Of a stretch of 59,904 nucleotides of DNA, positions 51,119 through 59,586 are shown in pieces (the first letter of the stretch is position 1; each line of letters opens with the position of its first letter). A model generated the notes under the pieces. That model saw only the letters and a program-made list of their open reading frames with translations, ran no database searches and had not been told where the DNA came from. Made by a program: the position numbers and the translations under genes. This stretch comes from Calditrichota bacterium (GTDB lineage Bacteria > Calditrichota > Calditrichia > Calditrichales > Calditrichaceae), in assembly GCA_024278755.1 (NCBI GenBank), contig JAJRSO010000052.1, forward strand, positions 1 to 59,904, in the 5' to 3' direction.

Positions 51119-52429
51119 TTATTTTTTTCCGTTTGCAATTTGAATCGCTACGCCTTCATCTCCCCCTGTAATTTCGGATGATTCGACGAGATATCCAAAC
51201 TGCTTAATAAATTCTTCCGAGGAGATACCGGCAGTTGCGGCATATTTTGCCAGCTCATGCGCATCATTAAAATCTTCTTTCTTTAAGCGAATCATATAGC
51301 GATAGGCAACATTATAGGATTCGGAATGCACATCAACCATACGAATTTTCATCTTCTTGGTTTTCTTATCCAGTATCTTTTTAAAATACATGGGTACAAA
51401 ATGTCCGTCCTGAACCGAAACCAGGGCGGCGGAACCACCGTCGCATAAAAACTTGGAGGCCATAAAACCCAAATCGCGGCAATATTCCATATCAAACGGA
51501 ATGGGGTCTGCACAGCGTAATTCATAGCCTATATTTTTAGCCACAATGGTTTCTTTGATATTAAACTCTGCAAGGCGTTGCTGTACTTTACGTTTTAAAA
51601 TCTCGCCAAAGGTGATTTCGTCAAATCGTAAATTGTCATGCGCATCGCGTTCTACTTCCATCGTAGCTGCAAAATCTTTTGGGTCTACCTTGTCCAGCAA
51701 GCCCTCCGCAATAATCGCCACGCCGTCTCTGCGGCCATAGCTGATTCGCTTAATTATCGCTCCAACCAAAATATCGACGATCTGATCGAATTTTATTGTT
51801 TTATCGCCAAACTCTTCGGGGATCAGACTTAGCGTGGCCCCGGCGGATTTACCAATTCCCAGTGCAAGATGGCCGGCTTTTCGTCCCATCGTTATTACAA
51901 AATACCAGCGCGAAGTGGTTTGTGCGTCCGTCATAATGTTTTTTACAATTTCCACACCCAAATGGCGCGCTGTCTGAAAACCAAACGTGCTTATATTCAG
52001 CGGCAGGTCCAAATCGTTATCAATCGTTTTGGGAACATGGGCAACACGAACCCGACCGTTGGCAATCTGCTCTACCCGGTAGGCAGAATAAGCGGTATCA
52101 TCACCGCCGATGGTAATCAGCTGGTCCACATTTAAACGAAGAAGTGAAGAAACCGTATTTTCCAAATGCGTAACATCCTTAGTTGGATTATCGCGCGAAA
52201 TACCAATGTGAGAACCTCCCCTGAAATGGATCCTGCTCACCGATTCGATGGTCAGAGGCATCGTATGGGAAATATCTCCCTGCATAATCCATTTAAATCC
52301 GTCTTTTATTCCAATGACTTCAGCTCCCGATAGAATAGCGCGGATTGTTGCTGCGCCAATAACAGTATTAATACCCGGCGCAGGCCCCCCGCCCACTAAA
52401 ATGGCTGTGCGTTTTGTATAAAGCGACAT
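51119..52429 (-). CDS. Phosphofructokinase family enzyme, probably PPi-dependent
   Basis: 436 residues from the ATG at 52429, preceded by AAGGAAG; upstream in-frame codons lack a ribosome-binding site. N-terminal AILVGGGPAPGINTVIGAA and substrate motifs VPKTIDNDL and MGRKAGHLA identify the family. The nucleotide-site motif is IGGDDTAYSA: Asp at the second position of GGDD, together with Lys in PKTIDND, marks PPi-using enzymes rather than ATP-using ones (GGDG, PGTIDND). It would interconvert fructose 6-phosphate and fructose 1,6-bisphosphate reversibly in the cytoplasm. Confidence 0.88.
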   Translation of the reverse strand: MSLYTKRTAILVGGGPAPGINTVIGAATIRAILSGAEVIGIKDGFKWIMQGDISHTMPLTIESVSRIHFRGGSHIGISRDNPTKDVTHLENTVSSLLRLNVDQLITIGGDDTAYSAYRVEQIANGRVRVAHVPKTIDNDLDLPLNISTFGFQTARHLGVEIVKNIMTDAQTTSRWYFVITMGRKAGHLALGIGKSAGATLSLIPEEFGDKTIKFDQIVDILVGAIIKRISYGRRDGVAIIAEGLLDKVDPKDFAATMEVERDAHDNLRFDEITFGEILKRKVQQRLAEFNIKETIVAKNIGYELRCADPIPFDMEYCRDLGFMASKFLCDGGSAALVSVQDGHFVPMYFKKILDKKTKKMKIRMVDVHSESYNVAYRYMIRLKKEDFNDAHELAKYAATAGISSEEFIKQFGYLVESSEITGGDEGVAIQIANGKK

Positions 52430-52477
52430 AATTCTTCCTTTATTTTGATACAAATTAATAGATCTATTTTGTAAGAA

Positions 52478-52527
52478 TGTAATATACAATCGCACTCCGA
52501 TGCAGGCAAATTTTACAATATATTACA
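52478..52527. repeat. 9-base inverted repeat upstream of the phosphofructokinase gene
   Basis: TGTAATATA at 52478-52486 and TATATTACA at 52519-52527 are exact complements separated by 32 bases. The pair lies 49 to 98 bases upstream of the phosphofructokinase ATG. It could be an operator or a cruciform; AT-richness makes chance possible. Confidence 0.35.
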
Positions 52528-52590
52528 TGCCGCCTATTTAAAAACAGGCCTGATTTTTGTAAATTCGAATTGCAATTTTATACCGATTGA

Positions 52591-52604
52591 GTGATATATA
52601 TCAA
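52591..52604. promoter_or_regulatory. Crp/FNR-type palindrome in the divergent phosphofructokinase / YhaN-like region
   Basis: GTGATATATATCAA matches TTGAT-N4-ATCAA in nine of ten defined positions. Its left arm GTGATATATA also pairs with TATATATCAC at 52638-52647, giving a 10-base inverted repeat. It lies 70 bases upstream of the ATG at 52674. The binding factor is not known and no Crp/FNR gene is in the window. Confidence 0.35.
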
Positions 52605-52673
52605 AAATTCAAACAATAAATAGAATAAATTGCCGTTTATATATCACCCATTATTTACTGAGGTTTTCCGTAG

Positions 52674-54452
52674 ATGGAAATTATTTCGCTGGAATTATCC
52701 GGTTTTAAAAATTACGAAACGAAAACACAGTTCAATTTTAAAGATAAGCACAATAATCTTATCTTTGATATGAATGGCGGCGAAAAATCCTTCTTTTTTG
52801 AGGCCATCCTCGGTATTATTTTCGGTTTTACCAGCGATGATAAAGTAAAATTTCGCGGAAATCCCGCCTTGAATAAAACGTTTACCGCAATGATCACTTT
52901 GGCTTTGGATCAGCGCACTATGATCATTGAGCGTGATTTTGAAACGGATTTTGTAGCTTGCCTGCTTTCGGATACAAAGACAACCCGTTCTATTTTTCAG
53001 GGAAAAGATTATGCGGACAACGGATATTCACGCCCCTATCTGCAAATGCTTCGGTCTGTATTCCCTGTTATCGACAAAGACCTATTTATTGAGGTATGCT
53101 ATAAATTAGCCGGAAAAGATAAAGGAAATTTTTCGGATTTACTGGATATTTTATATTCCCTGCTCACCCCTCAGTTTAAATTCAGTAATGTTAAATATCT
53201 GGTTAGCGAGGGAAATTTTCATGAGCAGGAATGTTTAAAAGCAAAGGACAGCAGCAATAGTCTTTCGCGCTATCAGGGCTTACATAAAGCCGTGCTACAT
53301 ATGCTTAAAATGAAAACCGCCGAAGAGCATTTGGAAAAAGATGTTCTTAAACTCGAAGTTTTGATTTCCGAACTAAAAGCACGATACAATTTAAGCGAGC
53401 ATTCCGAAGCAGAGTTAGGCAGAGAGTATGCAGCCCTTATGCCCTTTAATCCGCTTCAGTTACGCGCCGATATATTAATCTGGAAGAGTTTGCTGGATGT
53501 ACAGGAAAAGAATGATGACAAGAGGCGGGAACATCGTCTTAGAAAAGAACATATTGAAAATATTCTTAAACATGATTTGTACGAATACACTAAATTGCCC
53601 GATGATTTTAGCAAAGACGCCCATCGGTATAAAGAACGCAAGGTACAGATAAGTTACGCTCAAAAGACGCTGCATGATTATGAAGAGCAAATTGATGAGA
53701 TGAACCAATCAATGAGCAATGGCAAATTGCTCAAGCTACTGGCAAATGTTTTTGGCGCACCGCTTCTTTTTTTAGCTTCCTATTTAGTTTTAGGACCGGT
53801 CTGGATTTTCATTCTTCCCGAAACCGTAATTACTTTTTTTATTATCCTTGCGCTTACCAGCCATTCGACCCATAAAACACGTAACCGTATTTATCATTAT
53901 AGAGAAGAGACACATATTCTGGAAAAACGAATCCGAGAGGCGGAAAAAGAATGCCGTTTTTTGCTTAAAAAATCACACCTCTTTAAAAACGAAGAATATA
54001 TCGACAGCCATTTACAACGGTATAAAAAATGCCGTCAGTATCAACGCGAACTACGCCTTATCGAACGTGAAGAGAGAAAACTGCTGGAATCCGAAGCCTC
54101 AGGCGCTTATGAAGAACAGATTGCACATTATGAAAATGAATACGGTAAGGTAATTGATATTAACCGCCGTGATTTGGAAGCCTATTTAGACGCCTTTGTG
54201 ACCCGCAGAGAAGAATTGGAAAACAGCAAGCGGGATATCGAATCTTATCCCGCCATCAGCGAATTACAAAATTTATGCGAAATTCACCGTAAAGGGATAA
54301 AGGAGCTTCGCGCGGCTCGTAAAAGAATGACTCAAACATTGAAAATTGAAAACGGTACAACCAATCTATCGGAAATACTTGATAAACTGGATCGTAAAAT
54401 CAAAAACATTAAAATGCATCAAAACATGAATTCTGTTATCTCGCTACATTAA
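52674..54452 (+). CDS. YhaN/SMC-like coiled-coil protein with degenerate P-loop and membrane hairpin
   Basis: 592 residues. The N-terminus (SLELSGFKNYETKTQFNF) begins like RecF/Rad50/YhaN proteins. Where GPNGSGKS or GPNEAGKS is expected it reads DMNGGEKS: Asn, Lys and Ser remain but both flanking glycines are replaced. A long coiled coil follows, interrupted at about 350-400 by two hydrophobic helices (APLLFLASYLVLGPVWIF and a second), as in YhaN. The coiled coil resumes, but the C-terminal ATPase half with signature and Walker B motifs is absent; the protein ends in coiled coil. No nuclease partner is adjacent. It may be an inactive or structural relative, or a truncated gene. The 3' end overlaps the convergent hydrolase gene by 17 bases. 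Confidence 0.75.
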   Translation: MEIISLELSGFKNYETKTQFNFKDKHNNLIFDMNGGEKSFFFEAILGIIFGFTSDDKVKFRGNPALNKTFTAMITLALDQRTMIIERDFETDFVACLLSDTKTTRSIFQGKDYADNGYSRPYLQMLRSVFPVIDKDLFIEVCYKLAGKDKGNFSDLLDILYSLLTPQFKFSNVKYLVSEGNFHEQECLKAKDSSNSLSRYQGLHKAVLHMLKMKTAEEHLEKDVLKLEVLISELKARYNLSEHSEAELGREYAALMPFNPLQLRADILIWKSLLDVQEKNDDKRREHRLRKEHIENILKHDLYEYTKLPDDFSKDAHRYKERKVQISYAQKTLHDYEEQIDEMNQSMSNGKLLKLLANVFGAPLLFLASYLVLGPVWIFILPETVITFFIILALTSHSTHKTRNRIYHYREETHILEKRIREAEKECRFLLKKSHLFKNEEYIDSHLQRYKKCRQYQRELRLIEREERKLLESEASGAYEEQIAHYENEYGKVIDINRRDLEAYLDAFVTRREELENSKRDIESYPAISELQNLCEIHRKGIKELRAARKRMTQTLKIENGTTNLSEILDKLDRKIKNIKMHQNMNSVISLH

Positions 54453-55806
54453 ATTCCGTTTTTTCCTCTAACCAATCACCGATTATTTTTAAAATATCCG
54501 CATTAATCGTCTCTTTAATTTTACCATACTCCGAAACCGCCCCCGTTTGCGCTGTTTGAAAAAGATGGTTGACTTTTGGAATTTCCTTTATCCGAACATT
54601 TTTATTCCCCCCTTTTTGCAAGGCTGCGGCGATGGCTTTGAGATTCTTTTTTGCCTTAACCTGAATATCCTTACCGCCGTTTAAAGCCAATACAGGGCAT
54701 ATTACCCGCATTAGAACCGGAGCAGGATCAAATGAAATAAGCGAACGATATTTGGGCGACAAGAGTAATTTGATTTGTGGGAATTTGGCGGGCGGCAGTA
54801 TTTCCTTTAACCGTTTTTCGGCAAGGGCATTGTTTTTTTCCTGCATTACAATATCCAGTATATTTCGCTGCTTCTCCATATTTTGCAGCGCCGTCTGTTC
54901 ATTTAAACCCGCCATCCGTGAAATATCTCCCACCTGATCACAGATGATTTCGGAGCCTATAAGGCCCGGAGATGCCATTAAAACAATAAAAGCAACCGAT
55001 GGATCGTTAGCCGCTGAAAGTGAGGCCACAAGTCCGCCCTCGCTGTGTCCCAGCAAACCGATTTTCGTTTTGTCAATCTCTTTCAGTTTTTTCAAACGGG
55101 TTACGATTGTCTGTACATCGGCTGATAAATCTCTTATTGTCGAAACCGATAGATTCCCCGTCGATCCGCTCACCCCGCGATCATCATAACGGAAAACAGC
55201 GAATCCCCTGCGGGTCAGATAATCGGCCAAAACAAAAAACGGTTTATGCCCCAAAATGGTTTCATCGCGGTCCTGTGCGCCCGAACCGCTGATAAGAATA
55301 AGCGCCGGATGAGATTTTTTATCTTTCGGAAAAGTTAAGGTACCGGCAATTGTGTTTCCCTGCACCGGGTTTACAATGGAAAGCTCCCTGAAACCGTAAG
55401 GCAACGACACCGTCTTTTTTTTGGGTTGCTCTATTTTTTCTGGCTCCGCTCTTTGCAAATCCAATGGAAAAGCATACCCGCTTTGTTTCCAGATTCCCTT
55501 TAGGCCTTGTCCTTCTTCCTGAAGCGTTGCTTCGTAACTGCCACCAATTGCTTTTATTGATAAAACAATTCGCAGTGCATCTATTTGAATTTCATCAATA
55601 CCGATTCCCCGGGCGCCCTGGTCCGGACTGTCCATAGTCGCTTTAAATACTCCGCGCTCATCCTGAGAGATATGAAAAACAATTCTAAGCTCCTGACCGG
55701 AAAGGGCCAGTTTCCCCTGCCAGGTTCCGATAAAAACCTCTTGGGCAAAAAGAGAATCAAATAACACGAATATCGTTACAACCACTAATTGAACTACGTT
55801 TTTCAT
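54436..55806 (-). CDS. Secreted alpha/beta hydrolase with N-terminal beta domain
   Basis: 456 residues from the ATG at 55806 (AAGGA 8 bases upstream); an in-frame ATG at 55839 would bury the signal peptide (MKNVVQLVVVTIFVLFDSLFA). An N-terminal beta-rich region (FIGTWQGKLALSGQELRIVF) of about 110 residues is followed by an alpha/beta hydrolase domain: oxyanion-region ISGSGAQDRDE, nucleophile elbow GLLGHSEGG, acid in LNGGKDIQVKAK and His in PKVNHLFQ. It is exported and probably an esterase or peptidase; the substrate is unknown. It may be the gene type annotated as alpha/beta fold hydrolase with a DUF3887-like N-terminus, though this was not confirmed. Confidence 0.88.
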   Translation of the reverse strand: MKNVVQLVVVTIFVLFDSLFAQEVFIGTWQGKLALSGQELRIVFHISQDERGVFKATMDSPDQGARGIGIDEIQIDALRIVLSIKAIGGSYEATLQEEGQGLKGIWKQSGYAFPLDLQRAEPEKIEQPKKKTVSLPYGFRELSIVNPVQGNTIAGTLTFPKDKKSHPALILISGSGAQDRDETILGHKPFFVLADYLTRRGFAVFRYDDRGVSGSTGNLSVSTIRDLSADVQTIVTRLKKLKEIDKTKIGLLGHSEGGLVASLSAANDPSVAFIVLMASPGLIGSEIICDQVGDISRMAGLNEQTALQNMEKQRNILDIVMQEKNNALAEKRLKEILPPAKFPQIKLLLSPKYRSLISFDPAPVLMRVICPVLALNGGKDIQVKAKKNLKAIAAALQKGGNKNVRIKEIPKVNHLFQTAQTGAVSEYGKIKETINADILKIIGDWLEEKTEFNVAR

Positions 55807-55962
55807 TCTAAAGTCCTTTCTGTTGGATGTAATATTCAAAGATTAAACCTATACAGAAAAGGAATAAAAATATTCATCTTTTTTGTTGGATTTTTTTAAA
55901 TTTAAAAATGCCGTCGAAAGTGGCAGAATTCATTTATAAATAGTTTTATACCGGAGGCTATT

Positions 55963-58900
55963 CTAATTTTGTACGAAGATTTCATGTACTTCGGCCAGCA
56001 ATTGATTTACCGAGTACGGTTTTTTAAGAAAATTTATTTCTACATTGTTTTCATTTCCACGAATAACATTAGTATCGGTATAACCGGAAGTGAATAATAC
56101 AGGAAGACCGGGATAACTACGGGTGATTTCGTGGTACAACTCCATTCCGTTCATATCCGGCATTACCACATCTGTTATAACCAGATTAAATGAATATGAG
56201 TTCGAATCAAGAATTTTGACCGCTTCCTTTCCATTTTTTGCGGCAATAACTTTATAGCCGAATTCCTCCAAAGCGCTACGGGCAAAATTTCGGACCTGCT
56301 GTTCGTCTTCGACCAGTAAAATGGTTTCACTGCCTCGTAAATCGTTTTTCAAGGGCTCTGTTTTTTCTGCCTGTTCCGGCAGTTCGTCCGTCACGGGCCA
56401 ATAGATATGAAAAGTAGCACCCTTTCCGGATACGCTATCCACCTCAATTATTCCGTTGTTCTGCCGGATGATTCCGTAAACCGTAGAGAGTCCCAAACCG
56501 GTGCCCTTACCTTGTTCTTTTGTAGTAAAGAAAGGCTCAAACACTTTCAGGCGCACTTCCTCCGTCATCCCGATTCCGTTATCACTCACCGAAAGATGCA
56601 GATAGGATGCTGATTCGCCCTTTTTGTCACCAAAAGGAATCTGACGGATTATTGGGTTTTCACTAAGCTGGATATGGATATTTTTATCGGAGGCCGTTGT
56701 GGTTTTTTCATTTACGGCATCCCGTGCGTTCACCACCAGATTGATGATAATCTGCTCTAACTGTCCGGGATCGGCTTTAACCAGCGGAGCGGTATCATTC
56801 ATTTCGATCTGAAAATGGATATCCTCTCCGATAAGTCGCCGGATCATTTTCTGTAAACTATTTAAAATATCGCCCAGGCGGATAACCTGGGGACGGTACA
56901 TCTGTTTTCTGCTAAAAGTTAAGATCTGCCGGGTTAAATTTTCGGCTTTTTCCCCGGCGGCGCGTATCGCCGATAAATTTTTATATAACAAATCGTTTTC
57001 GGTTAGTTTTAACTGGCTTATTTCGGCATATCCGTTTATAACAGTGAGAATGTTATTAAAATCATGTGCAATGCCTCCGGCCAGTGTACCAATGGAATCC
57101 AGCTTTTGTGTTTGCAATAATTGCTCCTGTAACTGGTGTCGATCCGTGATATCCAGAATAACCATTAAAATACCGCTAACCGTTCCGGAGGAATCGGTCT
57201 GGGGACTTACGGAAATATCAATCCATTTTACGCTGCCGTCTTTTGAGATAATTCGTTCTTCGAGACGATACGCATCAATTTGCCTGTCACGAATTTCGAT
57301 CATCTTCCGCAAGGCAACTTTTATATCATCGGGATGGATTATATCCAGCATGGAAAGATGGTCCAATTCGTGCATAGAATAGCCAAGTATTTTTGAGAAG
57401 GTATGATTAAATAACGTAAGCGTACCGTCCAACGCGGCCGTTCCGATCCCTACACTGGCATTATTAAAGATAGATCTAAAATTTTCCTCGCTGCGGCGTA
57501 ATTCATCTTCCGCTTGTTTTTGTTTTATGGAAAGCGTGATCTGTCTCGATACAAATTCCAGCAGATGTAAATCCTCCTGCGAATAGGCTTTAGGATTACT
57601 GTAGCTTTGAACAACGATAATACCCAGCACCTGTTCTTCATCCTGCAACGGCACTCCCAGCCATATTTTACAGGGCGTACCGACCCCGCTTCCGGCCTTA
57701 TCCTGTTGTATCAGCCGTCGTATATCTTCCCCATTCAAAAGCATGGATTTTTTCTGTTCGATAACCTGCGCGCTCAGGGTTTGTTTTAACGGAACACGGC
57801 TGTATTCGTCCTTTTCATCTTTCATGTAAGAGAGCTCTAACATATTTGATGTTTTGTCATACAGACCGATAAACAGGTTAGAAGCGTCGATCAGACGATT
57901 CAGTTCCATATGGATAATCTTGTACAATTCCTGCATGTTTCCTGATTTTAAAACAGCATCCGAGATAGTTTGCATAACCTGCTTTAATAATTCCGATTTC
58001 TTTCGTTCCGTAATATCCCGGTCGATACCACGAAAGCCCGTTAGTCGGCCCTGTTCATCCTCAACCTTAACGGCGTTTTTTTCCAGAATCACCCGGCTCT
58101 TATCGGGCCGGATAAATGTATTTTCTATCTTTATAATGGAAACACCCTGTTCCACCTGCGTGATTATTTCCTTTTCCACTCTTTGCGCTTCGTTATCGTC
58201 CATAAATTCAAACGGTTTATGACCGATAAAATCTTTTTCGTCCCAACCGGTGATCGTTTTTATTGTGGGACTGATATATGTAAAATTTAACGATTCATCC
58301 ACTTCCCAAACAATATCCGCAGAAGTTTCTACCATTGCCCGGAAACGTTCTTCACTTTTCAGTAACGTTTGGTCCAGCGATTCCTTTGTTTCGCGCAATG
58401 CTTTAATCTGTTCTATAATCGCCTGCGAGATGAATAATAAAAAGAAAATACTACCGGCTTTAAAGCTGATTTCCGTCAACATTGTGCTTGCTATAAAGCC
58501 AAAACGGACTAAAACAAACACAATAATGCCAGCCAAAAGACCCAGCCCGCTCTTTAAGAACTGGCGTGCCCCGGAATTTCCTTTTTTCCAATATCCGCTT
58601 ACATAAATAAAAATATAGAGGATACTGATTATGGTTAATACCATAATAAATTTGATTACAAAGAAATATCCGACAAACGGAGTAAGAATTATTGAAATTA
58701 AAGCGATAGCGGATAATGCGATATTTATTCTGTGCAGTACGGGTTGTGTCTCCTTAACACTTAAAAAGACATCCGTAAAGAGCAGAAAAAAGATATTCAT
58801 TAGTCCGATAAAAACAGGAATGGCAACCGCATTAAAGGCCGTATTATCCGGCCAGAGCATTAAATACCCAAGTCCCGAATAGGCCAGATGATAACAGATA

Positions 58901-59586
58901 TGAAAAAAAACAGCAAGACTGAAATATAGAAATACCATATCCCGTAACGAAAAAAACAAAAATATATTGTAGCTAAAAATTATAAGCAGAATACCAAAAA
59001 AGAGGCCCAAAAGTAGTAGTTTTTCGTTGGCATGTTTAACAAAAGCGCCCATTGAACGAAGCGTTAAAGCAATGGTCATGGACGCATCGGATTTTAAACG
59101 CAGATAAACCGTCTGAACGGAATCCGGCGGGCACATTAGAACAAATTCTAATTTATTATAGATGTGATCCCGGGTAGCCAACGGACGCAGGCTGCCCGTT
59201 TCTGTTTTTTTTAGAAGCTTTCCGTGCGCCCCGAACTGATACAAATCCATATAAAACATATTGGCAAAATCAAGTTCCAGCATCCAGGGAATATATGCGG
59301 CATGACTCCTTTGATTTTTTATTTTGAAGCGAATCCAATAGGCCGACTGTGTATGACCAAAATTAGGAACACTCTTTTTATTTTTAACAAAACGCTTGGA
59401 AAATAAAGGTGAACTTACTTCATCAATGGTCAAAAGCGCCGTACTGTCTTCCATTATTTCAAGGGAGGGGCCAAGGATATAGGTATTTTGTTTATTAATC
59501 AGTAAAACAGGTTTCTGACTAATGGCCGGTTTTACTATAAACAATAAGTAAACAGGAATAAAATATAGGAACAGTCTCTTAAACAT
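55963..59586 (-). CDS. Hybrid sensor histidine kinase with 7TMR-DISM input
   Basis: 1207 residues. Signal peptide, then a 7TMR-DISMED2-type extracytoplasmic domain (about 30-180; YWIRFKIKNQRSHAAYIPWM, LELDFANMFYMDLYQF) and seven hydrophobic helices (about 185-400). Next come PAS (FRAMVETSADIVWEVDESL), GAF (LIDASNLFIGLYDK), a second PAS (FRSIFNNASVGIGTAALDG), the H box GGIAHDFNNILTVI, ATP-binding motifs NLVVNARDAV, DNGIGMTEE and GKGTGLGLSTVYG, and a receiver with phospho-Asp in LVITDVVMPDMNG. All residues needed for activity are present. It is a single gene with AGAAGGAA next to its ATG. Confidence 0.93.
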   Translation of the reverse strand: MFKRLFLYFIPVYLLFIVKPAISQKPVLLINKQNTYILGPSLEIMEDSTALLTIDEVSSPLFSKRFVKNKKSVPNFGHTQSAYWIRFKIKNQRSHAAYIPWMLELDFANMFYMDLYQFGAHGKLLKKTETGSLRPLATRDHIYNKLEFVLMCPPDSVQTVYLRLKSDASMTIALTLRSMGAFVKHANEKLLLLGLFFGILLIIFSYNIFLFFSLRDMVFLYFSLAVFFHICYHLAYSGLGYLMLWPDNTAFNAVAIPVFIGLMNIFFLLFTDVFLSVKETQPVLHRINIALSAIALISIILTPFVGYFFVIKFIMVLTIISILYIFIYVSGYWKKGNSGARQFLKSGLGLLAGIIVFVLVRFGFIASTMLTEISFKAGSIFFLLFISQAIIEQIKALRETKESLDQTLLKSEERFRAMVETSADIVWEVDESLNFTYISPTIKTITGWDEKDFIGHKPFEFMDDNEAQRVEKEIITQVEQGVSIIKIENTFIRPDKSRVILEKNAVKVEDEQGRLTGFRGIDRDITERKKSELLKQVMQTISDAVLKSGNMQELYKIIHMELNRLIDASNLFIGLYDKTSNMLELSYMKDEKDEYSRVPLKQTLSAQVIEQKKSMLLNGEDIRRLIQQDKAGSGVGTPCKIWLGVPLQDEEQVLGIIVVQSYSNPKAYSQEDLHLLEFVSRQITLSIKQKQAEDELRRSEENFRSIFNNASVGIGTAALDGTLTLFNHTFSKILGYSMHELDHLSMLDIIHPDDIKVALRKMIEIRDRQIDAYRLEERIISKDGSVKWIDISVSPQTDSSGTVSGILMVILDITDRHQLQEQLLQTQKLDSIGTLAGGIAHDFNNILTVINGYAEISQLKLTENDLLYKNLSAIRAAGEKAENLTRQILTFSRKQMYRPQVIRLGDILNSLQKMIRRLIGEDIHFQIEMNDTAPLVKADPGQLEQIIINLVVNARDAVNEKTTTASDKNIHIQLSENPIIRQIPFGDKKGESASYLHLSVSDNGIGMTEEVRLKVFEPFFTTKEQGKGTGLGLSTVYGIIRQNNGIIEVDSVSGKGATFHIYWPVTDELPEQAEKTEPLKNDLRGSETILLVEDEQQVRNFARSALEEFGYKVIAAKNGKEAVKILDSNSYSFNLVITDVVMPDMNGMELYHEITRSYPGLPVLFTSGYTDTNVIRGNENNVEINFLKKPYSVNQLLAEVHEIFVQN

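Follow-up and report, generated by a model that had tools for sequence, protein, structure and literature searches.

Half of a YhaN-type ATPase conserved in one order of Calditrichota, a putative membrane-tethered module with kinase-fused relatives

One open reading frame in the window, by which we mean the whole stretch of 59,904 nucleotides analysed here (Calditrichota bacterium, GenBank assembly GCA_024278755.1, contig JAJRSO010000052.1), resembles the first part of a YhaN ATPase and then ends. Is it the remnant of a broken gene, or half of an ATPase kept for another use? The frame runs unbroken from an ATG at 52674 to a TAA ending at 54452 and encodes 592 amino acids plus stop. Its product, here called half-YhaN, opens with an N-terminal ATPase lobe of the Rad50/YhaN type, from which a coiled coil runs to a hydrophobic hairpin; beyond the hairpin a second coiled coil returns.

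52674-54452, plus strand: half-YhaN (pseudo-YhaN) gene, an intact open reading frame with homologues in 19 of 40 genomes.
52674-53108, plus strand: head, predicted Rad50-type N-lobe, residues 1-145 (alignment, model, structure matches).
52767-52793, plus strand: degenerate P-loop DMNGGEKSF, residues 32-40; 0 of 19 homologues match GxxxxGK[ST].
52929-52949, plus strand: near-invariant ERDFETD, residues 86-92 (family alignments).
52998-53009, plus strand: near-invariant QGKD, residues 109-112 (family alignments); SDRD at that place in the full-length YhaN of genome G024.
53745-53873, plus strand: hydrophobic double span around residues 358-400, a putative TM hairpin; the Kyte-Doolittle value exceeds 1.6 at centre positions 363-388.
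53874-54449, plus strand: returning coiled coil and C-terminal end, which align colinearly with full-length YhaN; signature/Walker B lobe absent.

A preliminary description of the locus had reported a long open frame, a YhaN/Rad50-like N-terminus, an altered P-loop and a membrane hairpin, and on these points the analysis agrees with it: the frame is intact over all 592 codons, the modelled residues 1-150 match Rad50 N-lobes, residues 32-39 read DMNGGEKS against GPNESGKS in the full-length G024 homologue, and hydropathy gives a double span.

Pfam recorded only SMC_N on the window protein, below threshold (18.9 bits over residues 3-46, where the cut-off is 40), and its AAA_27 model gave no match at E<=10. 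Nothing was found at E<=0.01 with NCBIfam or with the PADLOC defence models, and on the latter result a defence role was dropped. A profile search of solved sequences returned mostly coiled-coil matches, the best being SMC3 (E 0.00056, residues 262-353), and the ATPase head was not among the matches. The 3' end of the gene overlaps by 17 bases that of an alpha/beta hydrolase gene (54436-55839, minus strand). One gene away from half-YhaN, at 55963-59586 on the minus strand, lies a hybrid kinase with 7TMR-DISM, PAS, GAF, HisKA and receiver domains, a neighbour in the window that is not conserved as such.

The AlphaFold2 model of half-YhaN, built with a 15-row alignment, had a mean pLDDT of 84.3 and a pTM of 0.50; the head folded alone without an alignment, a poor choice, gave a pLDDT of 42.5. 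When the model was compared with the PDB by Foldseek, the best E values belonged to long Rad50/SMC chains with large rmsd, and a compact match was obtained with the Rad50 N-lobe 1f2u_C (prob 1.00, TMt 0.55). VIA-align returned 5dny_B (Z 11.9, 2.6 A over 127 residues), 1f2u_C (Z 11.7, 3.5 A over 136 residues) and 3aux (Z 11.2, 3.0 A over 129 residues); only the rows for the head were used, because unrelated helical chains reach Z 10-11 against the rod. Residues 1-150 are thereby predicted to adopt the N-lobe fold of the Rad50/SbcC entries 1f2u, 3aux and 5dny. Unlike Rad50/SbcC, half-YhaN has no Walker A, no C-lobe and no Mre11-like partner, and carries a hydrophobic span in its rod. The hairpin is called from hydropathy and a GP break, since the model draws residues 312-433 as a single helix, with pLDDT of about 68-78 around the hydrophobic part.

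A full-length relative is present in another family of the class (f4). In G024, a YhaO gene (L040:2439-3587, Metallophos, 382 aa) directly precedes a YhaN gene (L040:3562-6075) whose product of 837 aa contains GPNESGKS, LSLG and FFLDDP and scores 55.7 bits with Pfam AAA_27; it is the sole full-length YhaN with an intact P-loop found by these searches in 40 genomes. Profile A1, made from 16 aligned rows of half-YhaN, matches it in two blocks (E 1.7e-30 and 7.5e-30). In a joint alignment, half-YhaN and full-length YhaN are colinear to about residue 634 of 828, through head, coiled coil, hydrophobic span and returning coiled coil; the hydrophobic span is also present in the G024 and Obscuribacterales full-length proteins. 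Head, rod and hydrophobic span of half-YhaN therefore descend from the same ancestor as those of YhaN, and the homology suggests that the half form was derived from such a full-length YhaN. As the alignment ends before the C-lobe, the lost part is the end of the second coiled coil plus the C-lobe; compared with YhaN, half-YhaN lacks the P-loop and the roughly 190-240 C-terminal residues bearing LSLG and FFLDDP, and compared with the G024 protein it also has different neighbours and no YhaO.

The absence of the C-terminal ATPase half and of a nearby SbcD/YhaO partner, both noted in the preliminary description, was confirmed. Signature and Walker B are missing, no YhaO lies near the gene, and the G024 YhaO query at E<=1e-6 found none in the 21 genomes of the order (2 of 40 overall). 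A C-terminal half encoded elsewhere, which that description had proposed to look for, was not found: a 261-aa C-terminal query of full-length YhaN had no match in the window's genome at E<=10, and among the five genomes searched it gave weak matches (E>=0.04) in G006 and G016.

To what extent is this reduced form shared? The search set was 40 Calditrichota genomes, the same 40 being returned at class and at phylum level. A protein query matched in 20 of them and profile A1 in 21 at the counting threshold of E<=0.001. Two of the latter were excluded from the half-YhaN count, G024 with its full-length YhaN and G030, whose 115-aa frame (E 2.5e-4) was left out as a homologue because its coiled-coil part alone matches. 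Half-YhaN is thus present in 19 of 40 genomes, all from one order (families f1 and f2), where it occupies 19 of 21 genomes; with the A1 profile it was not found in G005 (76% complete) or G011 (73% complete). The 16 complete homologues measure 564-598 aa, whereas contig ends truncate the copies in G001 and G018. In G010 a further shortened copy of about 406-427 aa (L039:9625-10896, plus strand) still adjoins the phosphofructokinase gene described below.

Within the first 80 residues, GxxxxGK[ST] is absent from all 19 homologues. Neither an LSGG-like signature nor the Walker B string hhhhD[DE] occurs in any of the 19, two of them being truncated at contig ends. According to the preliminary description, full-length orthologues with a normal P-loop would mark the window copy as simply broken. 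None was seen; the orthologues share its length and its altered P-loop, and the G024 YhaN is of another family, in another place, beside YhaO. That protein likely shows the ancestral form, and the window copy is not thereby a broken gene. Mean column entropy is 2.17 bits over the P-loop (residues 29-41), similar to that of the coiled coil (2.0-2.2); lower values, 1.12, 1.26 and 1.06 bits, were obtained for residues 1-12, 42-62 and 83-114, respectively. Positions G10, F11, G51, T71, E86-F89, T91, A95, G110-D112 and F130 are invariant in the 15-row and 16-row alignments. In other words, a near-invariant core (GF, ERDFxT, QGKD) was retained while the P-loop columns turned variable. Part of the head conservation is inherited, since ERDF also occurs in full-length YhaN homologues, and the column of the Walker A lysine holds K or R in 12 of 16 rows, so that residual phosphate binding is possible, a slight count against complete loss of phosphate contact.

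Selection was estimated by YN00 over the aligned length. Eight close pairs were tried, of which four gave a whole-length value and the remaining four gave none or were saturated. The pair of window and G001 (195 aa) had a dN/dS of 0.05, and three pairs within f2 gave 0.05, 0.11 and 0.08; for the head alone the values were 0.03-0.08 in the three computable pairs. Close half-YhaN pairs from two families are, in conclusion, under purifying selection (dN/dS 0.05-0.11). Of the earlier proposal of a maintained membrane scaffold, maintenance is borne out by conservation and selection, and the scaffold part stays conjectural.

Two further observations, which the window sequence alone did not reveal, concern the company that the head keeps: fusions to kinases and a pairing with a phosphofructokinase gene. 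A second head copy is fused to hybrid kinases in three of the four genomes of genus g6.

L041:7269-10211, minus strand: head-hybrid kinase of G006 (Pfam, alignment).
L042:2864-5812, plus strand: head-hybrid kinase of G013 (Pfam, alignment).
L043:4221-7145, minus strand: head-hybrid kinase of G012 (alignment).

These proteins (974-982 aa) consist of the head, approximately the first 145 residues, followed by PAS, HisKA, HATPase_c and receiver domains, as called by Pfam on two of the three (G006 and G013). Their heads keep nearly all the invariant positions of the family; the exceptions are a single E86D and position F130, which differs in all three. In contrast to half-YhaN they have kinase domains in place of the coiled-coil rod, and a hydrophobic span was not found in them; conversely, the HisKA/HATPase fusion seen in the three g6 proteins is absent from the window protein. 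In a tree of heads the three kinase heads group together (96/90); the full-length outgroups, on very long branches, could not be placed. A head-only profile at E<=10 across the 40 genomes found no further fusion above noise; weak matches (E 0.12-0.74) were dropped, as they look like other SMC-type ATPase starts or chance. PADLOC matches of the fusion kinase cover the receiver domain only. In G006 and G012 the kinase gene is followed by genes for a RACo-type protein and an alpha/beta hydrolase (Pfam on G006).

On the other side of half-YhaN lies a divergent gene:

51119-52429, minus strand: PPi-dependent phosphofructokinase, from an ATG at 52429 (NCBIfam NF041103).
52430-52673, no strand: divergent intergenic region between half-YhaN and phosphofructokinase (neighbourhood comparison).
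52591-52604, no strand: CRP/FNR-like palindrome GTGATATATATCAA (motif recurrence in related upstream regions).

The window enzyme scores 641.5 bits with NF041103 (cut-off 550). Its start faces half-YhaN in 17 of 19 genomes, at a spacing of about 143-1004 bp, and the outer neighbours vary: the window and G004 have NADH dehydrogenase genes, many other genomes have the UbiA/alternative complex III cluster, and TauE, M29 peptidase, AMP-ligase or NtrC-type genes lie on the half-YhaN side. G002 (96% complete) and G003 (87%) keep half-YhaN with no close phosphofructokinase copy beside it or elsewhere, G002 having only a 33%-identical relative. G011, where half-YhaN was not found, keeps the enzyme next to a 606-aa gene of another kind, which we take to be radical-SAM-like. 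Allowing at most one mismatch, 8 of 19 upstream regions contain the pattern GTGATN4ATCAA, compared with a shuffle mean of 0.33 (0 of 200 shuffles reach 8); 6 of the other 17 is the fairer count, because the pattern was picked from the window, of which G001 is a near-copy. Three such patterns were tried at two thresholds.

We favour, with a probability of about 0.6, the reading that half-YhaN is a membrane-tethered pseudo-ATPase rod whose head now serves as a docking or input module, that is, a kept and repurposed half ATPase. A full-length membrane YhaN would have lost its YhaO partner and its C-terminal ATPase lobe in the ancestor of one Calditrichota order while its P-loop decayed. What remained, and was then inherited vertically, would be a Rad50-type N-lobe on a coiled-coil rod, anchored to the membrane by the hydrophobic hairpin at the far end of the rod, and Rad50-style ATP binding and hydrolysis would not be expected of it. 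The head may dock a protein or ligand through the conserved GF, ERDFxT and QGKD, and the rod would keep the complex at the membrane. In genus g6, where the head precedes soluble PAS-HisKA-receiver kinases, two-component signalling may read head binding. Of the mechanisms that call on every retained part and on no lost one, such an adaptor is the simplest. Homology, losses, conservation, kinase fusion and gene pairing are direct observations; docking, the oligomeric state and a link to signalling or to glycolysis we infer; the kinase fusions, confined to three genomes of one genus, hint at signalling and the gene pairing at phosphofructokinase, two hints not yet in agreement. A more tentative extension, which we consider possible though not probable, is that the N-lobe, freed from ATP, became an independent interaction or input domain, once on the order-wide membrane rod and once fronting soluble hybrid histidine kinases, and that the rod and the kinase either recognise a common ligand or interact directly.

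Among the other explanations, the least improbable makes half-YhaN a partner or regulator of the phosphofructokinase, for instance its membrane holder. Divergent adjacency in 17 of 19 genomes despite changing outer neighbours of both genes is consistent with this, as is the CRP/FNR-like site, although that site may serve the enzyme gene alone; each of the two genes also occurs apart from the other (G002 and G003, and G011), and we regard the explanation as unlikely. Rather more doubtful is an ATP-independent SMC/Rad50-like DNA tether at the membrane. It would suit the Rad50/SMC ancestry and the membrane rod, but the ATP-driven DNA clamp of Rad50 requires Walker A/B and the C-lobe, all absent here, while the YhaO nuclease was not found in the order and PADLOC models had no match at E<=0.01.

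The protein might also belong to a split ATPase whose C-lobe is supplied in trans by another protein, given that the N-lobe fold is retained and that in the Rad50 entry 1f2u the N-lobe is a separate chain of 148 residues. This has little chance of being right: the 261-aa C-lobe query had no match at E<=10 in the genome of the window, the three further members of the order that were searched gave nothing better than E 0.04, and the P-loop that a C-lobe would serve is absent from 19 of 19 homologues. A decaying YhaN pseudogene, open by chance, would explain the missing P-loop and C-lobe and the shortening to 406-427 aa in G010. We reject it as highly improbable on selection and conservation, since size and loss are alike order-wide, dN/dS is low, the near-invariant motifs are present and gene order is conserved in 17 of 19 genomes.

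If the membrane-tethered pseudo-ATPase reading is correct, half of an ABC-type ATPase head has survived as a non-catalytic module and been recruited to signal transduction, and another family of the class still has a full-length relative. The head would then be a defined small domain of about 125-145 residues, to which the present Pfam and NCBIfam scans gave no name. Literature searches listed no paper on the half-YhaN family, and the text of PMC5317091 mentions neither YhaN nor phosphofructokinase.

In addition to the 40 genomes, the genome_contigs collection was scanned with a single narrow peptide pattern, [IV]ERDF[EK]T[DG][IFV], which returned 28 stretches, 16 of them relatives. The head may occur more widely than this narrow scan, which missed the kinase fusions, shows. 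Two of the 16 are full-length Obscuribacterales proteins of about 973 aa with the P-loop EPNEYGKT, and the other 14 lie in records labelled Calditrichota or kin, one being labelled Caldisericaceae. That record (L049, isolate AUK261) carries a Calditrichota half-YhaN, and its title is probably a wrong label.
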